DNA of 64,000 bases from Comamonadaceae bacterium (GTDB lineage: Bacteria > Pseudomonadota > Gammaproteobacteria > Burkholderiales > Burkholderiaceae_C). Below, one piece after another: positions 33,575 to 45,128 of this stretch. Location: positions 62,001 through 126,000 of the forward strand of contig JAACZV010000006.1 of assembly GCA_009996515.1 (NCBI GenBank), given 5' to 3'. Made by a program: the position numbers and the translations under genes. Numbering within the stretch: the stretch's first letter is position 1; each line of letters opens with the position of its first letter. Below the pieces are notes generated by a model. The model saw nothing but the letters and a program-made list of their open reading frames with translations. It had not been told where the DNA came from and made no database searches.

Positions 33575-33671
33575 GCAGCGCGGGTGCTCAAAGGCGGCGA
33601 TGCTGGCCCCGCGGCATGACAGGGGCGTGACGACACGCGGCGGCGCGGCAGCCCTCCCGGCCCGGCGCAAG

Positions 33672-33706
33672 AAAAAACCCTTCGGCCGACGCGGCGGTCC
33701 GAAGGG
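33672..33706 (-). terminator. Intrinsic terminator ~100 nt upstream of the 33574 start
   Basis: Minus strand CCCTTCGG-ACCGCCGCGTCGG-CCGAAGGG-TTTTTT. Confidence 0.8.
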
Positions 33707-33818
33707 CTGAATCCACCCGTGACGGGAGGAGGAGACAAGTGCCGTACGTTAATGCGGGACAAACCCCTACGGCGCTCAAGTTCGCGACCGAAGGCCGTCG
33801 CGCGCCGCCGGACCGCGC

Positions 33819-35213
33819 TTGGACCCGCGGCCGGCCGGCCCTACATTGCCGACTGCCCCCGCCGCCGGAGACCGCACCATAGCCTCGCCCCCCCGCCCCG
33901 TCAGCTTCCGGGAAGCCCTGCGCTTCTGGCTCAAGCTCGGCTTCATCAGCTTCGGCGGCCCGGCCGGGCAGATCGCCATCATGCACACCGAGCTGGTGGA
34001 GCGCCGCCGCTGGATCAGCGAGCGGCGCTTCCTGCATGCGCTGAACTACTGCATGCTGCTGCCCGGCCCCGAGGCCCAGCAGCTGGCCACCTACATCGGC
34101 TGGCTGATGCACCGCACCCGCGGCGGGCTGGCGGCCGGCCTGCTGTTCGTGCTGCCCTCGCTGTTCATCCTCGTGCTGCTGTCCTGGATCTACCTGGCCT
34201 GGGGCCAGCTGCCGCTGGTGGCGGGGCTGTTCTACGGCCTCAAGCCCGCCGTGACGGCGCTGGTGCTGCACGCGGCCCACCGCATCGGCACGCGGGCCCT
34301 GAGGAATGCCTGGCTCTGGGCCATCGCCGCCGCGGCCTTCGTCGCCATCTTTGCGCTGCACGCGCCCTTCCCCCTCATCGTGCTGGCCGCCGCCCTCGTC
34401 GGCCATGTCGGCGGGCGGCACGCGCCGCAGGTCTTCGCGCCCGGCGGCGGCCCCGGCGCGGCCCGGCAGGGCTGGGGCCCGGCGCTGATCGACGACGACA
34501 CGCCCACGCCGCCCCATGCCCGCTTCGGCCGCGCCCGGCTGGCGCGCGTGCTGGCCGGCGGCCTGGGGCTGTGGGCTGCCGCACTGGCGGCGCTGGCGCT
34601 GACCAGCGGCTGGCAGGGGGCGCTGGCGCAGATGGGCTGGTTCTTCACCCAGGCCGCGCTGCTGACCTTCGGCGGCGCCTATGCCGTGCTGCCCTATGTC
34701 TACCAGGGGGCCGTCGAGCAGCAGCATTGGCTGACCGGCGCGCAGATGATGGACGGCCTGGCGCTGGGAGAGACGACGCCGGGGCCGCTGATCATGGTGG
34801 TGGCCTTCGTCGGCTTCGTGGGCGGCTGGACGCGGCAGCTGTTCGGCCCCGACGCCCTCTTCCTGGCCGGCGCGGCGGCGGCCGGCGTCGCCACCTTCTT
34901 CACCTTCCTGCCGTCCTTCGTCTTCATCCTGGCCGGCGGGCCGCTGATCGAGTCCACGCATGGCCAGCTGCGCTTCACCGCACCGCTGACGGCCATCACG
35001 GCCGCCGTCGTCGGCGTCATCCTGAACCTGGCGCTGTTCTTCGCCTGGCATGTGTTGTGGCCGCAGGGGCTGGCCGGAGGGTTCGACGGCGTCGCGGCCC
35101 TGATCGCCACGGGGGCCGCCATCGCGCTGTGGCGCTTCAGGCTGGGCGTCATGCCGCTGCTGGCCTTGTGCGCGCTGGCCGGCCTGGCGGCCCGCCTGCT
35201 GCAGGGCGGCTGA
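33819..35213 (+). CDS. chrA: Chromate transporter ChrA family
   Basis: [38 protein letters not shown]; second half [22 protein letters not shown]. Confidence 0.93.
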
Positions 35214-35247
35214 GCGGGTGGCGGCCGCACTGGCGTAGGCTTGCGCC

Positions 35248-35808
35248 ATGAGCCGCCGCATCGCCGCCCTCGCCACCGCCCTGCTCGCCGCCCTGGCGCT
35301 GGCGACCTGCGCCGTCGTGAGCCGCGTGGCCGGCGATCATCTGGACATCGAGCGGGCCGAGCTGCAGGCCCGCATCGAAGCACGCTTCCCGACGCAGCAC
35401 TGCAAGCTGCTCGTCGCCTGCCTGGACCTGTCCAGGCCCGAGGTCGTGCTGACCGAGGGCGAAGACCGCATCGGCCTCAACGCCGACGCCACGCTGAGGC
35501 TGGGAGGGCGCGAGCAGACCGGCCGCGTGGGCTTCTCGGGCCGGCCGCGCTATGTGCCCGAGCAGGGCCAGCTGTTCCTGGACGATCTGCAGATCACGAC
35601 GCTGGAGTTCCCGGGTGTCTCCGAGGCCTACATCGCCGCCGTGAAGCTGCGCGGACCGGTGCTGATCCATGCGCTGCTGGGCGCCCGCCCCGTCTACACG
35701 TTGGATGCCGGCACGACCAAGGGCGCGCTGGCCAAGCTGGCCGTGCGGGACGTGAAGGTGGTGAACGGGAAGCTCCGGATCAGCTTCGCGCTGGCGGGGC
35801 GCGAGTAG
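35248..35808 (+). CDS. DUF1439-like lipoprotein
   Basis: N-terminal signal/lipobox-like ALATC; IERAELQARIEARFP...VVLTEGEDRIGLNADATLRLGG. Confidence 0.75.
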   Translation: MSRRIAALATALLAALALATCAVVSRVAGDHLDIERAELQARIEARFPTQHCKLLVACLDLSRPEVVLTEGEDRIGLNADATLRLGGREQTGRVGFSGRPRYVPEQGQLFLDDLQITTLEFPGVSEAYIAAVKLRGPVLIHALLGARPVYTLDAGTTKGALAKLAVRDVKVVNGKLRISFALAGRE

Positions 35809-36268
35809 CCGGGCGCGCCTGGCGCGCGCTGCGAAGGTCGATGGCGACGAAACGCCGACCATCGCTTGGGACGGTCGGCCGCGCGCCACGGCGCCGTCGG
35901 CGTGATCCCGAACCCGACGCCGTTCTGCGCCCGGGTGATCGAGGCAAGCAGGATCGCGAACATGCCTCGCCAAGCGGCGGGAGCAGGCTCTCCGACTGAC
36001 AGCCCACTGCGCCCATGGCCGGGCTGCTGGAGGGCGTCTTGGCCCGAAGGCCCGGCTGGCCAGCGATGCGCCCGGTGGCCTGGGCGCCCACGCCCACCGT
36101 CGATCGGCCAGGCCGGGGCGGCCGATTGGCTGGCGCGGGATGGCCGGGTTGCTGCGCGAAGCCACGATGCACACGAGGCGCGCCTGCCGCACAGGGCCGA
36201 GGGCGCAATTCGTCGTTTCCAGCCGACTTTTCAGCTGCAGGCTTACCCTAGGTCAAGGACATGCCAGG

Positions 36269-36311
36269 TTGACAATGTTGTCCGTACAAATCAATCTTGT
36301 ACGGACAACAT
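36269..36311 (+). promoter_or_regulatory. TTGACA -35 abutting a 15-bp perfect inverted repeat (putative operator) upstream of the TonB receptor
   Basis: ATGTTGTCCGTACAA (36275-36289) - ATCAATC - TTGTACGGACAACAT (36297-36311). Confidence 0.85.
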
Positions 36312-36387
36312 GGGAAGCTCGGAAATGACGAGCGTGTTGCCGGGGACGCTGACGCCCCATCCGCCCGAACGCACAGGAGTAACCGTA

Positions 36388-38577
36388 GTGAATTGTTCCT
36401 TCCGAACACGTCCCGCAGTCCGCCTCAGCCCCTTGTATCTGGGCGCTCTGCTCTGCCTGGCCCTGCCGGCGGCACACGCCCAGACTGCCGATCCCGCGCC
36501 GACTCGGCAAGAAGCGGGACCGGACGCCCAGACCGAGCCTGCCAAGCTGGGCGTGGTCGTGGTCACCGCGCAGCGCCGCAACGAGGCGCTGCAATCGACG
36601 CCGGTGGCGATCACCGCATTGAGCGCGACCGACCTCGAACGCAAGCAGGTTCGCCGTCTCGACGACATGAAGTTCGAGGTGCCCAATGTCGTCATCGAGG
36701 CGGCCACCGGCACCTCCAGCGGCGCGAAGATCTTCATGCGCGGCATCGGCACCGACGACACGGTGTTCACGACCGACCCCTCGGTGGCGATCTATGTGGA
36801 CGACATGTATCTGGCGCGCGCCACCGGCGCGATGCTGGACATGTTCGAGCTGGAGCGGGTGGAAGTGCTGCGCGGCCCGCAGGGCACGCTGTATGGCCGC
36901 AACGCCACCGGTGGTGCGGTGCGTTACGTGACCAAGAAGCCCACCGGTGAGTCGCGCCTGGAGGCGGAAACCCGCGTCGGCAATCTGGGGCGCTTCGACC
37001 TGCAGCTCGGTGGCGGCACCAGGCTCGGCGATTCGGTGGCCGTGTCGTATGGCCTGATGTCGAAGACGCGCGGCGGCTCGATGCGCGACATCACCAACAA
37101 CCGCGACGTCAATGACGAGGACATGAAGGGCGGCCGAGTCGGCCTGGCTTTCGACCTGAGCCGCGACACCAGCGTGCGGCTGTCGGCCGACATCCTGCGC
37201 CAGCGCAGCGGGCCCAGCTATGCCTCGGGCATCCTCGACCCCGTCAAGGCCGCGAAGTACGGCCGCCCGGTCAACAACGCCGACGGCAATCTGCTGACGC
37301 TGGAGACCGATCTGCCTGACGGCAGCAATGATCTCGATCAGGCCGGCTTCGCGCTGACGACCTCGACGGATATGGGTGCCTTCGAGTGGCGCAACATCCT
37401 GACCTACCGGCAGATGGACAACCTGCTCTACATCGACGCCGACGGCACGGCGCAGAAGCGCTATCACCTGTACCAAGACCAGTCGCAATCGCAGGCCAGC
37501 TACGAGATGCAGTTCGTCTCGCTCGACAAGGGTCCGCTGAGCTGGACCGGCGGCCTGTTCGCCTTCCGGGAGAAGAACGACCAGCCGACGCGCCAGGACA
37601 TCTTCGGCACCGGCGGCCTGGCCACGATCGCGCAGAAGACCCTGGCCGTGGCCGCCTATGGCCAGGCGGACTGGCGCTTCGACAAGGTCTGGAAGGTCAC
37701 TGGCGGCCTGCGCTACAGCCACGAGAGCAAGGATTTCAGCTTCGATGCGCTGAAGGCCGACGGCAGCCGCAGCTTCGACGTGCGGATCAAGCGGGATTGG
37801 GGCCGCGCGGACTGGAAGCTCGGCATCGATGCCCAGTTCAGCCGCGATCTGTTCGGCTACGCCTCGGTGACGACCGGTTTCAAGAGCGGCGGCTTCAATG
37901 GCCGTGGCGCGACCAAGGCGGCCGCTTCCGTCGTGCTGCGGCCCGAGACCGTGCGCACCTACGAGACCGGTCTGAAGTCGACGCTGGCCGACGGTGCCGT
38001 GATCCTGAACGGCAACGTCTTCCGCAACGAGTACAACGACCTGCAGCTCAATGCCTATGACGCCAACGGCCAATCCAATCTGACCAACGCCACCAGTGCG
38101 GTCATCCAGGGCATAGAGATCGAGGCCTCGGCCCAGTTGAGCAGGCACTGGCAGGCGGGCATGAACATCGGCACGCTGGATGCCAAGTACAAGAAGTTCA
38201 GCGACGCCAATGCGGTGATCTTCGATGGCGTGCCGCTGAAGATGGCGCCCAAGCTGCAGTACGGCCTGAGCACCAGCTACCGCGCGCCGCTCGGCGCCGG
38301 CCAACTGCTGTTCAATGCCCAGCTCAAGCATGTCGGCGAGCATTACCTGAACCTGGCCGCGTCCGAGATCATCAAGACCGAGGCCTACACGCTGGTTGAC
38401 GCGCGCATCGCCTACGAGGCGCCGGGCAACAGGTGGAGCGTCGGCCTGTGGGGCAAGAACCTGACCAACAAGCTCTACTACGCCGGCGCCTTCGACATCT
38501 CGGGCCTGGGCATCGCCGATGCCTACATCAGCATGCCGCGCACCTTCGGCATCGATGCGCGTTATCGCTTCTGGTGA
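36388..38577 (+). CDS. TonB-dependent receptor
   Basis: GTG start with AGGAG at 36375; signal peptide, plug VVVTAQRRNEALQSTPVAITALSATDLE, RVEVLRGPQGTLYGRNATGGAVRYVTKKP, C-terminal aromatic. Confidence 0.94.
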   Translation: MNCSFRTRPAVRLSPLYLGALLCLALPAAHAQTADPAPTRQEAGPDAQTEPAKLGVVVVTAQRRNEALQSTPVAITALSATDLERKQVRRLDDMKFEVPNVVIEAATGTSSGAKIFMRGIGTDDTVFTTDPSVAIYVDDMYLARATGAMLDMFELERVEVLRGPQGTLYGRNATGGAVRYVTKKPTGESRLEAETRVGNLGRFDLQLGGGTRLGDSVAVSYGLMSKTRGGSMRDITNNRDVNDEDMKGGRVGLAFDLSRDTSVRLSADILRQRSGPSYASGILDPVKAAKYGRPVNNADGNLLTLETDLPDGSNDLDQAGFALTTSTDMGAFEWRNILTYRQMDNLLYIDADGTAQKRYHLYQDQSQSQASYEMQFVSLDKGPLSWTGGLFAFREKNDQPTRQDIFGTGGLATIAQKTLAVAAYGQADWRFDKVWKVTGGLRYSHESKDFSFDALKADGSRSFDVRIKRDWGRADWKLGIDAQFSRDLFGYASVTTGFKSGGFNGRGATKAAASVVLRPETVRTYETGLKSTLADGAVILNGNVFRNEYNDLQLNAYDANGQSNLTNATSAVIQGIEIEASAQLSRHWQAGMNIGTLDAKYKKFSDANAVIFDGVPLKMAPKLQYGLSTSYRAPLGAGQLLFNAQLKHVGEHYLNLAASEIIKTEAYTLVDARIAYEAPGNRWSVGLWGKNLTNKLYYAGAFDISGLGIADAYISMPRTFGIDARYRFW

Positions 38578-38994
38578 CCGCCCGATGTTGCCGCCCGCGA
38601 GGGCGGCTCGTTCGAGACGGGCTTGACGATCGCTCGGCCGATCAAGCTCTTGTCGACTGCATGCCCTGCCGCGCCTGCCGGATGCCGCAAGTCAGGCCAG
38701 CATGCGCCGATCGTCAGCAAGCGCCGCGAACTGGCCGGCCTGTGAGCATGGCCCAGGCCGGCATGCGCTCCTAGCGAGCGGCGCCGGCCGCATCGGCTGC
38801 GGCCGAGGAAGGCGGATGGGGCGTGCAGGCCCCGGGCCTGCGAGCGGCTTTGTCTATGGCTGCGACAGCGTGGCCGCGCCGCGGTGACAACTACTTCACG
38901 CAAATGCCCGCAGCCCTTTTCGGCTCGCCAGGGAGCGCCGCCGCAAAAGCTATCGTTTCGCGTGATTCATTTGGTTACCACCCCTCAGGATTTC

Positions 38995-40110
38995 ATGAAG
39001 AAGCTGCGCATCGCCCTGGCCTGCACCCTGCTGGCCACATTGACTCCGGTCGCCCACGCGCAGTTCGGCCTGGGCATCTTCAATGCCGCGACCAATGTCC
39101 TCAATCGCGCCGCGGGCAAGATGCTGAACAACGACAAGCCCACGGACATCGAGGCCGAGCGCACCAAGTATTTCGCCAAGATGGAGGAGGCGATCCGCGG
39201 CCTCTCGGCCGCCGATGCGGCCGGCATACGCAAGACCATGGAGGGCCAGTGGGACGGCCTGGAGAACGTCATGCTGATGCGAAACGCCCAGGTGGCGCGC
39301 GAGAAGTCGGCCCCGGTCTTCGACCTCAAGGCCGCTGCGATGGACATCTCCGGCGGCGCGGCATTGAGCGCCAACCTGAGCCGCGGTGCCTTCGGCGACA
39401 ACGGCTTCGGCAGCATGCTGCAGTCGGCGGCGCTGAACGGCGTTGTGTCCGGCATGGGCGGCGAGGCCGGCGCGCCGGCGGCCGCCATGCCTGGCGGCAT
39501 CCACCCGGCGATGGCCGGCGCCATGGCCACCGGCTCCATGCCGACCGGCGCGGCCATGAGCGCTGCCGCCCAGAACGCGGTGACGGCCCCCGTCAGCAAC
39601 GCGATCGCCTCCAGGGTGGGTGGCGTGGTGCAGGGCCTGTTCGGCGGCAGCAAGGCCGCCGGCCTCGGCGAGCCCGTCCACCCCACGCGCTTCTTCAACC
39701 GCCACCCGTCGGAGCTGAGCCGCGACGTCGTGCGCCGGGAGGCCGGCAACATCGGCTGGAAGCGGATACAGCACAACGAGGACGGATCCGTCGAGGTGTT
39801 TGCGCCGGTGATGGCCGAGGACAGCTTCAAGGCCGTCGTCTTCAGCTACGACCCGCAGGGCGCCGTGGTCGGCGCCTTCCGCATGCTCAAGGCCGGCCTG
39901 ACCGACTTCCGTCCGCTGGCCGACGAGGCCGGCAAGCTGGTCGGGGTCACGCCGACCTTCGCCTCGGGCCAGGGCGTGCTGCGCGCCGTCTGGTCGGACG
40001 GCGCCTTCCTGACCGCAGACGCCAGCAGCATGAGCTTCGGCTGGTCGGTGCTGACCAAGACCAACTTCGGCCAGCTGGTGGCCGCGACCGCCGGGGCGAC
40101 GTCGCAATGA
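38995..40110 (+). CDS. Exported protein of unknown function (371 aa)
   Basis: Signal peptide MKKLRIALACTLLATLTPVAHAQ; Ala/Gly/Met-rich centre; folded-looking C-terminus. Confidence 0.8.
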   Translation: MKKLRIALACTLLATLTPVAHAQFGLGIFNAATNVLNRAAGKMLNNDKPTDIEAERTKYFAKMEEAIRGLSAADAAGIRKTMEGQWDGLENVMLMRNAQVAREKSAPVFDLKAAAMDISGGAALSANLSRGAFGDNGFGSMLQSAALNGVVSGMGGEAGAPAAAMPGGIHPAMAGAMATGSMPTGAAMSAAAQNAVTAPVSNAIASRVGGVVQGLFGGSKAAGLGEPVHPTRFFNRHPSELSRDVVRREAGNIGWKRIQHNEDGSVEVFAPVMAEDSFKAVVFSYDPQGAVVGAFRMLKAGLTDFRPLADEAGKLVGVTPTFASGQGVLRAVWSDGAFLTADASSMSFGWSVLTKTNFGQLVAATAGATSQ

Positions 40111-40751
40111 GGGCGCGGCACTGGTTGGGCGCGCTGCTGCTCGCGATGGGCACGCACGCGCTCGCGCAGGTCTCGTGCGCCAGCCGGGATCCGTTCACGG
40201 GCGCATGCGCCTCGGGCGCGGGCCTGGCGGGGGCCGGCGCCGCCGCACCCGCCAGGCAGGGCGTTGCCGACAGCGGCCTGGCCACGGCAGGCGGCAACCC
40301 GTTCGTCCCGGGCCTGCCCAGTGGCGTCGTCAGGGACGGCCGCCGGGTCTGCACCCAGTTCGACACCCGATCGCCCCCCGGCGCACCGCCTCGCTGCCTG
40401 GTCTGGGCCACCTCGCAGTCCGACTACAACAGCGCGGTGCAGACCGGCATCGACGCCGCCATGAACGGCATGGCCATCATCCGCGACGTCCAGGCGCGAA
40501 CGGCAGGCATGGGTGCGCTCGGCATGGGCGGCATGCCCGCGCTGCCGGTGCCGGCGCCGTCCACGGCGGGTGTGCCGGCTCAGGGTTATGGCACGCCCCA
40601 GCAGATCCCGGGCGGCCTCGCGCAGAGCGCCCAAGGCCTGCAGTTCGCCGAATGCGTGAAGACGCGCTCGGCGGCGATCACACGCCAGCAAGGCCGTGAA
40701 CCCACGCCCGACGAGACCATGACCATCATCCAGCACTGCGACCGGCCCTGA
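40107..40751 (+). CDS. Exported protein of unknown function (214 aa)
   Basis: Signal peptide MRARHWLGALLLAMGTHALAQ; paired cysteines; ATGA overlap with preceding gene. Confidence 0.78.
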   Translation: MRARHWLGALLLAMGTHALAQVSCASRDPFTGACASGAGLAGAGAAAPARQGVADSGLATAGGNPFVPGLPSGVVRDGRRVCTQFDTRSPPGAPPRCLVWATSQSDYNSAVQTGIDAAMNGMAIIRDVQARTAGMGALGMGGMPALPVPAPSTAGVPAQGYGTPQQIPGGLAQSAQGLQFAECVKTRSAAITRQQGREPTPDETMTIIQHCDRP

Positions 40752-40752
40752 G

Positions 40753-41805
40753 ATGAGGCGTCTGATCCTCGCCGGCGCGATCGCGCTGCTGCCGCTGGCG
40801 CCCGCCTGGGCCGCTCAGGACGCCCAGCCCGCCAACTGCGCCCGCGAATACCTGGGCAACGACAGCTGGGGCGGCTGTATTGCGCAACGGCCGTCGAGCC
40901 AGCAGCAGCTCAGCGGCCAGTGGGTGGACTGGGATACGCCCTCCTGGATTCGCGCGCTGGCCTATTGCCGCGGCGGCAACGTCGATGCCGACGCGGCGGC
41001 CATCTGCGGAACCGTCACGAACATCGCCTCCTTGTGCGAGAAACGCGAAGCCGGCCAGCCCTCCAACATGGGTGCGCGCATGGTCGAGGTCTGCATGCGT
41101 GCCGGCTATCGCGATCCCAAGGAATCCGGCGATGTGCGGGCCCTGCTGCAGCTGGTGTGGGATGAATCCGCAGGCCTGAAGGCCTGCACCGTCTTTTCCG
41201 ACGCCGTCAAGGACTTGAACATCGTCAAGGGCTCGGCGAGCCCGCCCGGCCCGGCCGGCCGCCCGGGGCAGACGCCGCGCCCCCGGTCCACCCCGACTCA
41301 GCCTGCGCCCTCTTCCGGCTCTGCCCATCCGCAGCCGGCCCAGAGCGGCGCCGCCCCAAGCCTGTATGAACGATTCAAGCAGTTCAACGCCAAGCGCAAG
41401 TTCGACAACGTGGTCGCGCAAGTGCGTGACGCGCGCGACACGCTCGAGCGCACCGGAACGCTGGACCGCCTGAGGCGCTACAAGGAGTTGCGCGAGCGGG
41501 CCGAGGATGTGGCGGAGAAGGTGGAGACCGCGGAGAAATGGGCCTCCACGCTGTTCGGCGATGGCCTGCAACGGCCCGCGTTGTTTCTGGGCCTGGGCAT
41601 TGCCCAGCCCAAGCTGTGGAACTGCCTGTCCATCGACAACGACGACGCGATGCTGCAATGCATAGGCAGCTACGGCCCCGAGGACATCAAGCGCGACCTG
41701 GCGTACACCCAGGCCGTGACCGAACTCATCGAGGACACCGACACCATCAAGTGCCTGCGCTCGTCGCAGAAGGTGGTGGACTTCGCGAAGAAGAAGTTCC
41801 GCTGA
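40753..41805 (+). CDS. Exported Cys-rich protein of unknown function (350 aa)
   Basis: Signal peptide MRRLILAGAIALLPLAPAWAAQ; Cys-rich N-domain, Pro-rich linker, helical C-domain. Confidence 0.8.
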   Translation: MRRLILAGAIALLPLAPAWAAQDAQPANCAREYLGNDSWGGCIAQRPSSQQQLSGQWVDWDTPSWIRALAYCRGGNVDADAAAICGTVTNIASLCEKREAGQPSNMGARMVEVCMRAGYRDPKESGDVRALLQLVWDESAGLKACTVFSDAVKDLNIVKGSASPPGPAGRPGQTPRPRSTPTQPAPSSGSAHPQPAQSGAAPSLYERFKQFNAKRKFDNVVAQVRDARDTLERTGTLDRLRRYKELRERAEDVAEKVETAEKWASTLFGDGLQRPALFLGLGIAQPKLWNCLSIDNDDAMLQCIGSYGPEDIKRDLAYTQAVTELIEDTDTIKCLRSSQKVVDFAKKKFR

Positions 41806-42024
41806 GCGCCCGGCTCGACGGTGGCTCGAAGGGGCGACGGCACTGCGGCAACGACCCCGCCGAGGGCTTGGCGCCGTCGGGACCGCGGCGCCGGACAAAT
41901 CCGCCAACGCGATCGTCGACGACCCGACCGCCCGCTTGCGGCCCCAGACCTGGCCCGGCGCGTTCTGCGCCCAGAAACGCCAAGGGCCTGCACAAGCAAG
42001 CCCTCGATTCGCAAACATGATTCT

Positions 42025-42070
42025 TGGTAGGCCGTGCAGGACTTGAACCTGCGACCAAAGGATTATGAGT
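42025..42070 (-). repeat. Displaced tRNA(CAU) 3' half (putative att site)
   Basis: 40/46 identical to 45052-45097; includes CCA end, T-arm and anticodon stretch. Confidence 0.88.
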
Positions 42071-42384
42071 TTGCCCGTGACAGACAGTGCCTAGGGAAGG
42101 CGAGCGAATCTTAGCGTAGCGTCGCGAACAGGAAAGTACTTGAGCGACAGTAGGTTAGCGAAGGTTCGCGAAGCGCGTCGGTCATGAGCAATGTTCCGCT
42201 TTTGTACCGGGAGCGGCTCGCTCGATACGCCGCACTTGGCAGGCTCCACGCACGGGCAGTTTGGCACCGAGGATGCGGCAGTCGTCGCAACTGGCTTACT
42301 GCATAGTGAGCAAGCTCCAGCCCTAGAGCACGCGAAAAGATGAAATGACCTCGGAGCTACCGGTGCGTGCCATCCCTCTGGCCT

Positions 42385-43392
42385 CTACTTCTCGCCCCCG
42401 CCATTGGTCGCACTCTTGACGATCTCCAGCACCTTTGAGCCTGTGTCGGCGGAGCTGTCCCCACTCTCCAGATAGCCGCTTGGAGCGATCGCAAAGATTG
42501 ACCGCGTCGTTTCCAGCAAGACGGCGTTTCGAGTTGCCGTGTCATCCGTCGCCTTCACAAACGCCTGGAATGACTTGAGCGCGTTGGAGCGATGTCGGTT
42601 GGTTGCGGCCTGGTGCTTCAGCGCTCGGTAGGTGCGAGCGCACCACGCTGTCGCCCCGATCAGCATACCCAACAGTACCAGCTTGGAGGTCATGAACTGC
42701 AGCACGACAGCGGTGCTCGCGTCGGACTTCAATGGAATGAAGAAGGAGCCGATTGCAGTGGCACATGTCACTCCCGCAACCCAGCCTGTTGCTTTGAGCC
42801 AGCTCTTTGCGTCCGTCTCATTGGTATCGGCCTGCCCTGAGAAGTCGGCCGTGAAATGCGCCACGCCGACGGTGGCTGAAGCTTCTCGTGCGGCTTTGAT
42901 GATGCCGTCAAGATCAAGTGTCGCCTTCTTCGCGTCCCTGTCGGCGTTTTCTAAGATCTGCTTGGCAGTGCCGACCGTCGAATTAAGCGCCTTGATGTTT
43001 TCTTGAATGTCGCCCTTCTGATAGGCAAGGAACGGAATCCACCCCTGCACTGTTATGAGCAAATTGTCGGCATGCCCAAAAAGCTGATTAATGAGCGAGT
43101 CTCGCTGCGCAATCGGACTACCGACGCTCAAGTTGAACGATCTGATCGATTCGATGGTATTCGATACCGGCTCCAGGCTATTCGAAAACTGAGCTAGTGG
43201 TGTGTCTGGAACAAGGTCGATGGGCAGGGTCAGAAGATGGTTCGCAATATTGAAGATCAGCTCCAGTTGCGGTCGTGCCTCCTGAAAATTGATGCTTCCC
43301 CAGTCTGGGTTCTGAACTAGCTTTTCGATGGGATCATTGACGATGCCTCGAGCGAGTTCACTGACCCTGCCGACATTGGTCGCGTTGCCCAT
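42385..43392 (-). CDS. Hypothetical membrane protein (335 aa), island-borne
   Basis: Two hydrophobic segments (ATGWVAGVTCATAIGSFFIPL; KLVLLGMLIGATAWCA), C-terminal HRSNALKSFQAFVKATDDTATRNAVLLETTRSIFAIAPSGYL. Confidence 0.75.
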   Translation of the reverse strand: MGNATNVGRVSELARGIVNDPIEKLVQNPDWGSINFQEARPQLELIFNIANHLLTLPIDLVPDTPLAQFSNSLEPVSNTIESIRSFNLSVGSPIAQRDSLINQLFGHADNLLITVQGWIPFLAYQKGDIQENIKALNSTVGTAKQILENADRDAKKATLDLDGIIKAAREASATVGVAHFTADFSGQADTNETDAKSWLKATGWVAGVTCATAIGSFFIPLKSDASTAVVLQFMTSKLVLLGMLIGATAWCARTYRALKHQAATNRHRSNALKSFQAFVKATDDTATRNAVLLETTRSIFAIAPSGYLESGDSSADTGSKVLEIVKSATNGGGEK

Positions 43393-43778
43393 GCTATTGA
43401 CCCTCCTTTGTTTTCGGCCCGATGTTGGGCTCTACGCGCACAGTATTTGTCACATCGCGACCTGGCAATTCAGGCGAACCCGGACGCTTGGCAAGCTCGC
43501 AAAAGATGATAGCCATAGAGCCGCCAGTGCATGGCGTGGTCTTGCCGCCGCATAGGCCGTGTCAGGTTACGAGGGGGCAAGACCAGGCAGTTGCCCCACG
43601 GCTTGTCGGCATGGGGCGACGCCAACAAGATAAGCAGTCGCCTTCGAAAGACTGAACGGAAGTGCAGGGGGGGATGGCAGTCACCGGGGTAAGTTCTGGC
43701 GGGCTGCTCGGCCGGAGTGGCTCATCTGGTGAGCCACCGAGGGCGTTCAATCCTATTTTTTATCACTTGAGGAAAAAC

Positions 43779-44423
43779 ATGGAGTTGCTGAATGACGCTC
43801 GAATTTTGCACACGATCTTGTTTGTAGTGCCGGTTGGCATCTTGCTTGCCTGGGTTCGGCTGCGGGAGCGTCAATGGATGCTCTCGTCCAAGAGGAAGCG
43901 AGCCGCAAGGGAGATGTTCAAGAAATCGGCGTGGAAGAAAGCCGCACCGCTGGATTTTCACTTCGCAATGACCGACGCTTTTGGTCAAAGTGTCGAGCTC
44001 AACGAAATGGCATTCATCGAAGCGCGACAGGCGCCTGTCCAACTGCTGCTGAACAGAATCAAGGCGGGGCCGTTTGTCCAGTATGTGGAGGAAGAGGGCA
44101 CCTATGTGGACCCGCGTCGTCCATGGGCGCAGCGATGGCTGCCGTTCGGCGTAATTTCGTTCGGTTCAATTCTGGCTGCCTCGTTTCTGGTCACGGCGCT
44201 GCTCTTTCTTGTGCTCCACACTTGGGCGAATTACGGGACGCTTGCGGCTACTGTCGTTGGCGCTGCCGTAGGAGTTCTGGGCGTGCTGTGGCTTTGGCTA
44301 ATGCTGATCTTTTCGCAGATGGCGGACGCGGCAAAGCGGGTTCTTAGGCCTGAACGCCATCGGGCTGCAGGTCAATTGCGCCAGCCTCGCGGCACCGAAT
44401 CCGTCGGCCAGGCTAATGAATGA
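43779..44423 (+). CDS. Hypothetical membrane protein (214 aa), island-borne
   Basis: GAGG RBS before ATG at 43779; N-terminal TM plus two C-terminal TM segments. Confidence 0.7.
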   Translation: MELLNDARILHTILFVVPVGILLAWVRLRERQWMLSSKRKRAAREMFKKSAWKKAAPLDFHFAMTDAFGQSVELNEMAFIEARQAPVQLLLNRIKAGPFVQYVEEEGTYVDPRRPWAQRWLPFGVISFGSILAASFLVTALLFLVLHTWANYGTLAATVVGAAVGVLGVLWLWLMLIFSQMADAAKRVLRPERHRAAGQLRQPRGTESVGQANE

Positions 44424-44741
44424 GCAATGAGGGCGGCCGCGCGAGTCACGTTCAAGGTGACTTGGCCGGACGCATGCACATCCGCAACGCCGCAGATTTG
44501 AGGCGCGCCTTGGCCTCCGGGGACTGCCTCCGCAGCCTCTGCCTGTCGATGGCGTGAGTTCAGAGTGGCCTGCGGCGCTGCACCGGCATGTCTTCTGGAA
44601 CCTCAACCCCTTCGAGCACCATGTCCTCGGACAATGCGCTAGCGGAAGCGCCACGAGTAGCGATAGCCTGGCTCATCTCTTTGATGGACACCGATCTCGC
44701 GCGGTCGCCAAACATGCCCTTCAGAGCAGGATCAAACACAC

Positions 44742-44945
44742 CTACCGGCCGATGGCCGATTCAAAGGTCAGCCGCTCCGACGCTGCGCGCTGGACAAACA
44801 GGCCTCGCACCATCTCGTCTTCGGTGCGCCTGGCCCAGTCCTCGGCGTCTCGCTTGAGGCGGAAGGTCTTGATCGTGGTGGGAAAGCCCGTCTTGCGGAT
44901 GACGGCTTTCCAGGTGCCCGAGGGCGTCTTGACGAGGGTTGGCAT
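44742..44945 (-). pseudogene. Truncated phage-type tyrosine recombinase (N-terminal fragment)
   Basis: MPTLVKTPSGTWKAVIRKTGFPTTIKTFRLKRDAEDWARRTEDEMVRGLFVQRAASERLTFESAIGR*; catalytic domain absent. Confidence 0.8.
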
Positions 44946-45051
44946 CGGTACAGGTCGTGCTCGCAACTCGGCACTGTACTGAAGGAGCGTTTTCGGTACG
45001 CGTCACGGCGAGCAAAATGCCTGCAAACCCGCATCACTATTGGGATTGGGG

Positions 45052-45128
45052 TGGTAGGCCGTATTGGACTTGAACCAATGACCAAAGGATTATGAGTCCT
45101 CTGCTCTGACCAACTGAGCTAACGGCCC
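45052..45128 (-). tRNA. tRNA with CAU anticodon (tRNA-Met, or tRNA-Ile2)
   Basis: GGGCCGTTAGCTCAGTTGGTCAGAGCAGAGGACTCATAATCCTTTGGTCATTGGTTCAAGTCCAATACGGCCTACCA; cloverleaf with encoded CCA. Confidence 0.92.

Follow-up and report, generated by a model that had tools for sequence, protein, structure and literature searches.

A probable remnant of a tRNA-Ile2(CAU) genomic island, with an exchanged tRNA 3' half, in a Roseateles/Pelomonas-type bacterium

Genomic islands integrated into tRNA genes (tDNAs) include a sublocation class in which the crossover is in the anticodon loop (Williams, 2002, as cited in the Islander database paper, PMC4383910). In integrations of this kind the half of the gene upstream of the crossover stays that of the host, the downstream half comes from attP, and the original 3' half of the host gene is displaced (PMC4383910).

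The locus described here is in the genome of a Roseateles/Pelomonas-type bacterium, in a 64,000-nt stretch of contig JAACZV010000006.1 (the window). It is very probably what remains of a tRNA-targeted genomic island that replaced the 3' half of the host tRNA with its own, and whose integrase was later deleted. A first-pass annotation, made from the sequence alone, had proposed integration at a tRNA gene followed by loss of integrase function; this is supported, both by an empty site in a relative (G014) and by integrase relatives beside the same tRNA. Beyond that reading, the present analysis identifies the tRNA as Ile2, indicates which 3' half replaced the other, and describes a deletion scar, the empty site, and a hotspot of composite nature. 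Feature coordinates are collected in the table.

Features of the putative island remnant and its flank (window coordinates)
Feature	Position	Strand	Basis
Native flank of the original tRNA, with hairpin AGGGCTTGC..GCAGGCCCT	41975..42024	-	Matches G014 tRNA flank and G004 attR flank
Displaced 3' fragment, putatively of the host's original tRNA-Ile2 (attR); T-arm GCAGG/CCTGC	42025..42070	-	Repeat; genus comparison
Cargo gene, intact; 335-aa protein with C-terminal hydrophobic segment	42385..43392	-	Relatives in G267, G106 and a Vibrio plasmid
Cargo gene, intact; 214-aa membrane protein	43779..44423	+	64% relative near SIR2-HerA pair
C-terminal remnant of AbrB-type VapB antitoxin, right after the integrase break	44647..44727	-	Limnohabitans plasmid match
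Tyrosine integrase remnant, residues 1-67 of about 360	44745..44945	-	Intact integrases L122/L123/L216
Element end between tRNA 3' end and integrase, containing ATGCGGGTTTGC	44946..45051	-	Alignment with L216, L170, L060, L217
tRNA-Ile2(CAU) gene, putatively regenerated at attL	45052..45128	-	ARAGORN, Rfam, E. coli matches, T-arm comparison

The tRNA gene and its two 3' halves

The CAU tRNA was called by ARAGORN and by Rfam (RF00005, 71.5 bits). ARAGORN labels it "Met", but this label reflects the anticodon only and was dropped: elongator (L197) and initiator (L199) tRNA-Met genes are both present separately in the genome, and the best E. coli matches to the CAU tRNA are annotated as tRNA-Ile. 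For these last two reasons it is assigned to tRNA-Ile2(CAU) and predicted to read AUA, as such tRNAs do once C34 has been turned into lysidine by TilS, its normal fate. One tRNA-Ile2(CAU) gene was found in the genome; it is therefore presumably essential, and would have to remain functional. Its 5' half, through the anticodon loop, is contiguous with host hrcA.

The first-pass annotation had described an intact tRNA and a tRNA 3' half as 46-nt direct repeats, and the comparison of 42025-42070 with 45052-45097 bears this out: the copies are 87% identical, no direct repeat in the surrounding 7 kb is longer, and a genome-wide pattern search for the tRNA 3' half found these two places only. Intact gene and displaced fragment, in direct orientation, bracket the putative element. 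The repeat begins in the anticodon loop, as do displaced fragments across the genus, which start at CTCATAA or within two bases of it; in the window and in G011 the match extends into the stem by one or a few additional bases.

The two copies differ at six positions, GCA/TGC in the fragment against ATT/AAT in the intact tRNA, whose T-arm is ATTGG/CCAAT. All six changes are compensatory, in three T-stem pairs, and pairing is kept in both copies; for this reason the copies appear to be two functional alleles rather than products of decay. Mutation of either the fragment or the tRNA in place, after integration, could conceivably have produced the difference, since drift is open to displaced fragments and that of G011 has a change in its acceptor; but the restriction of the differences to three still-paired stem positions, and the occurrence of both T-arm alleles as functional tRNAs in congeners, make this very improbable.

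Two inherited alleles being the preferred reading, the principle of anticodon-loop integration (PMC4383910) indicates which is which: the GCAGG fragment would be the host's original 3' end, and the intact tRNA would carry the element's 3' half (ATTGG). The "intact" gene and "fragment" of the first-pass annotation thus both exist, but the fragment would be the original host end and half of the intact gene element-derived. Modest support for a host origin of the fragment comes from G017, G027, and G033, near hrcA relatives that carry GCAGG (on the hrcA tree these three form a group with support 96/88, and are joined by the window's genome at 84/79). An element T-arm that is different yet equally well paired makes the foreign half of a working tRNA recognizable.

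The segment between the repeats

The 2,981 bp between the repeats (42071-45051) have a GC content of 58.2%, compared to 70.1% for the window, which places them in the lowest 0.7% of same-size windows; the lower GC content noted in the first-pass annotation is thus borne out, as are its truncated tyrosine recombinase near the tRNA and its two genes for putative membrane proteins. The recombinase remnant is 87-88% identical over its 67 residues to intact integrases, including those of G089 and G397, and its family identity follows from PF00589, found in a full-length relative. Intact relatives adjoin the same tRNA-Ile2(CAU) in other genera, with ATGCGGGTTTGC at the same place in the spacer between tRNA and integrase. 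One relative of the integrase start (L124, on contig C9 of G006; 83%) instead adjoins two tRNA-Lys genes, and the family may use tRNA-Lys as well.

The integrase frame ends at a TAG codon (44742-44744). The only tyrosine integrase encoded within the element is this remnant; a complete one with a catalytic domain was not found there. Next to the break is the VapB remnant, 62% identical over 29 residues to an AbrB/MazE protein that precedes vapC on a Limnohabitans plasmid. Because the two remnants adjoin, the junction is likely to have arisen by internal deletion, which would be the simplest account. The element can probably no longer move or excise by itself, and, as no second integrase of the remnant's family was found elsewhere in the genome, its rescue in trans appears unlikely.

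The retention of both attachment copies and of two intact cargo genes would also fit a small, satellite-like cargo island lacking a full integrase from the outset and mobilized in trans by a related one. This is very improbable, however, given that the start of the integrase gene and the segment before it are in their usual place, that the integrase frame stops at a scar with the VapB remnant, and that a search for the family found no member elsewhere in the genome.

Both cargo genes are rare, each being found in 3 of 301 family genomes (its own included) and in none of the congeners searched; both products have hydrophobic segments. Relatives of the 335-aa gene that span nearly its whole length were found in G267 (38%), G106, and a Vibrio plasmid. 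That of G106 (L211) adjoins an IntI-like integrase, and that of the Vibrio plasmid, pFP31 (L208), is in a same-strand array of small genes resembling integron cassettes. A 64% identical relative of the 214-aa gene lies near a SIR2-HerA defence pair in G224; the same 14-kb stretch (L212) also carries a tRNA-Arg(TCT) gene. From these genomic contexts, a defence role for the cargo is possible. Family searches with both genes (Pfam, NCBIfam, PADLOC, PHROGs) gave no convincing match, the one weak hit, to phosphoglycerate kinase (E 3e-4), being below the cutoff of that profile; no relative of either was found in the viral contigs searched; and structures predicted from the single sequences were of low quality (pLDDT 45 and 62). 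A conserved two-gene cargo system was considered and rejected, as the pair was not seen together in any other genome. The lack of a relative with the same pair, and so of a candidate for the intact parent element, counts somewhat against the island reading. By the same family searches the 3 kb hold no phage structural or conjugation gene, and the segment is accordingly not classed as a prophage or ICE.

The integration site within the genus

An empty site, which the first-pass annotation had proposed looking for in relatives, is present in G014: a single tRNA has hrcA on one side (88-91% identity over 7 kb) and on the other the 50-nt flank that in the window adjoins the displaced fragment, including the hairpin. 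Homology is lost after about 50 nt, and the shortness of this shared outer flank counts somewhat against the integration reading. The same flank is found beyond the displaced fragment of G004. In the window the element now separates it from the tRNA. No relative was seen that lacks the segment yet carries the fragment, and the segment is not part of a syntenic core.

The presence of a tRNA and a partial copy could in principle reflect partial tandem duplication of the tRNA gene, with no integration at all. This is extremely improbable: it is contradicted by the G014 empty site and by the integrase remnant, whose family uses tRNA-Ile2; the intervening 3 kb are atypical in GC content and missing at this locus in congeners; and the displaced fragments of five congeners begin at the same place.

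In the integration scenario, the crossover between the element's attP and the host gene, a single-copy tRNA-Ile2(CAU) gene lying downstream of hrcA, would have been made in the anticodon loop (CTCATAA) by a tyrosine integrase belonging to a Burkholderiales family. The host 5' half would have been joined to the element's 3' half (T-arm ATTGG/CCAAT, acceptor strand, and CCA), rebuilding a putatively functional tRNA, while the original host 3' half (GCAGG/CCTGC) would have ended up, together with its flank, at the opposite end of the element. Subsequently, DNA including the catalytic domain may have been lost by an internal deletion that fused the integrase gene, at codon 67, with the 3' end of vapB. 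What remained would be two intact orphan cargo genes in a remnant presumably no longer self-excising.

In most other congeners the DNA after the tRNA is different, and the site appears to be a hotspot within the genus. Synteny resumes at 33.5-33.7 kb of the window in G019, G001, G005, G013, and G006, in the last of these 11 bp past its displaced fragment. Since window positions 33.6-42.0 kb, the 8.4 kb beyond the fragment, are thus also not in place in congeners, the variable zone seems to be composite, and events may be nested. This stretch (33600-42000) encodes a chromate transporter, a DUF1439 protein, a TonB receptor, and three unnamed genes (38884-41805).

In L160, L016 (G016), and L065 the tRNA-Ile2(CAU) gene is interrupted by a group I intron (RF00028), which sits in the anticodon loop, where the islands have their crossover; similar interruptions were seen in G027 (L169) and in G002 (L154, scanned but below the Rfam cutoff). 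Such an intron might block island integration.

Three T-arm alleles, ATTGG, GTTGG, and GCAGG, are present at the tRNA-Ile2 locus within the genus, and the hrcA tree requires at least five changes among four labels, with G016, entered as undetermined, counted as one of them. One element is common to G018 and G004: its two copies are 100% identical, both in the 508 bp aligned next to the tRNA and in 6,000 bp at the opposite end. Their outer flanks are unrelated. The intact tRNA has ATTGG in both genomes, while the displaced fragment has GCAGG in G018 and ATTGG in G004. On the simplest reading, the same element brought ATTGG to both, which would support rewriting of the T-arm; each island is split over contigs, however, and a binning error in one is possible. 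Identity over more than 6 kb in two species (L213/L162 in G018, L214/L014 in G004) indicates either a very recent transfer or a binning artefact.

Tentatively, and with somewhat less than even confidence, it may be proposed that islands repeatedly rewrite the T-arm of this single-copy essential tRNA across the genus, with the displaced fragments as a readable record of the alleles replaced. If so, T-arm diversity at the locus would be driven by mobile elements rather than point mutation. Together with the G018/G004 pair, the island described here suggests that an essential tRNA can have its sequence altered by integrative elements, which may explain large T-stem differences at this locus between related species.

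Comparison with known systems

The feature appears to be a decayed island of the known anticodon-loop tDNA class: ordinary as an island, with the small twist that the host tRNA is left with a different 3' half, and useful as an example in which the two halves of the tRNA are clearly distinguishable. Like other islands of this class (Islander, PMC4383910), it has a regenerated tRNA at one end and a displaced 3' fragment at the other, an anticodon-loop crossover, and a tyrosine integrase gene adjoining the intact tRNA; unlike them, it has an integrase cut to 67 residues, a length of only 3 kb, and tRNA 3' halves that are different alleles.

The closest integrases, at tRNA-Ile2(CAU) in other Burkholderiales genera (L122 of G089; L123 of G397, 371 aa; L060), are 82-88% identical over the remnant and share its position and orientation relative to the tRNA, as well as the segment before the integrase gene. 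In contrast to the remnant, those of G089 and G397 are intact; that of L060 is interrupted by about 3.5 kb. No cargo in common with these elements was found. As with the tRNA gene fragments attributed to mobile-element integration (PMC9897764), a partial tRNA gene has been left behind, but in the present case the T-arm of the fragment is an allele of its own, with pairing preserved.
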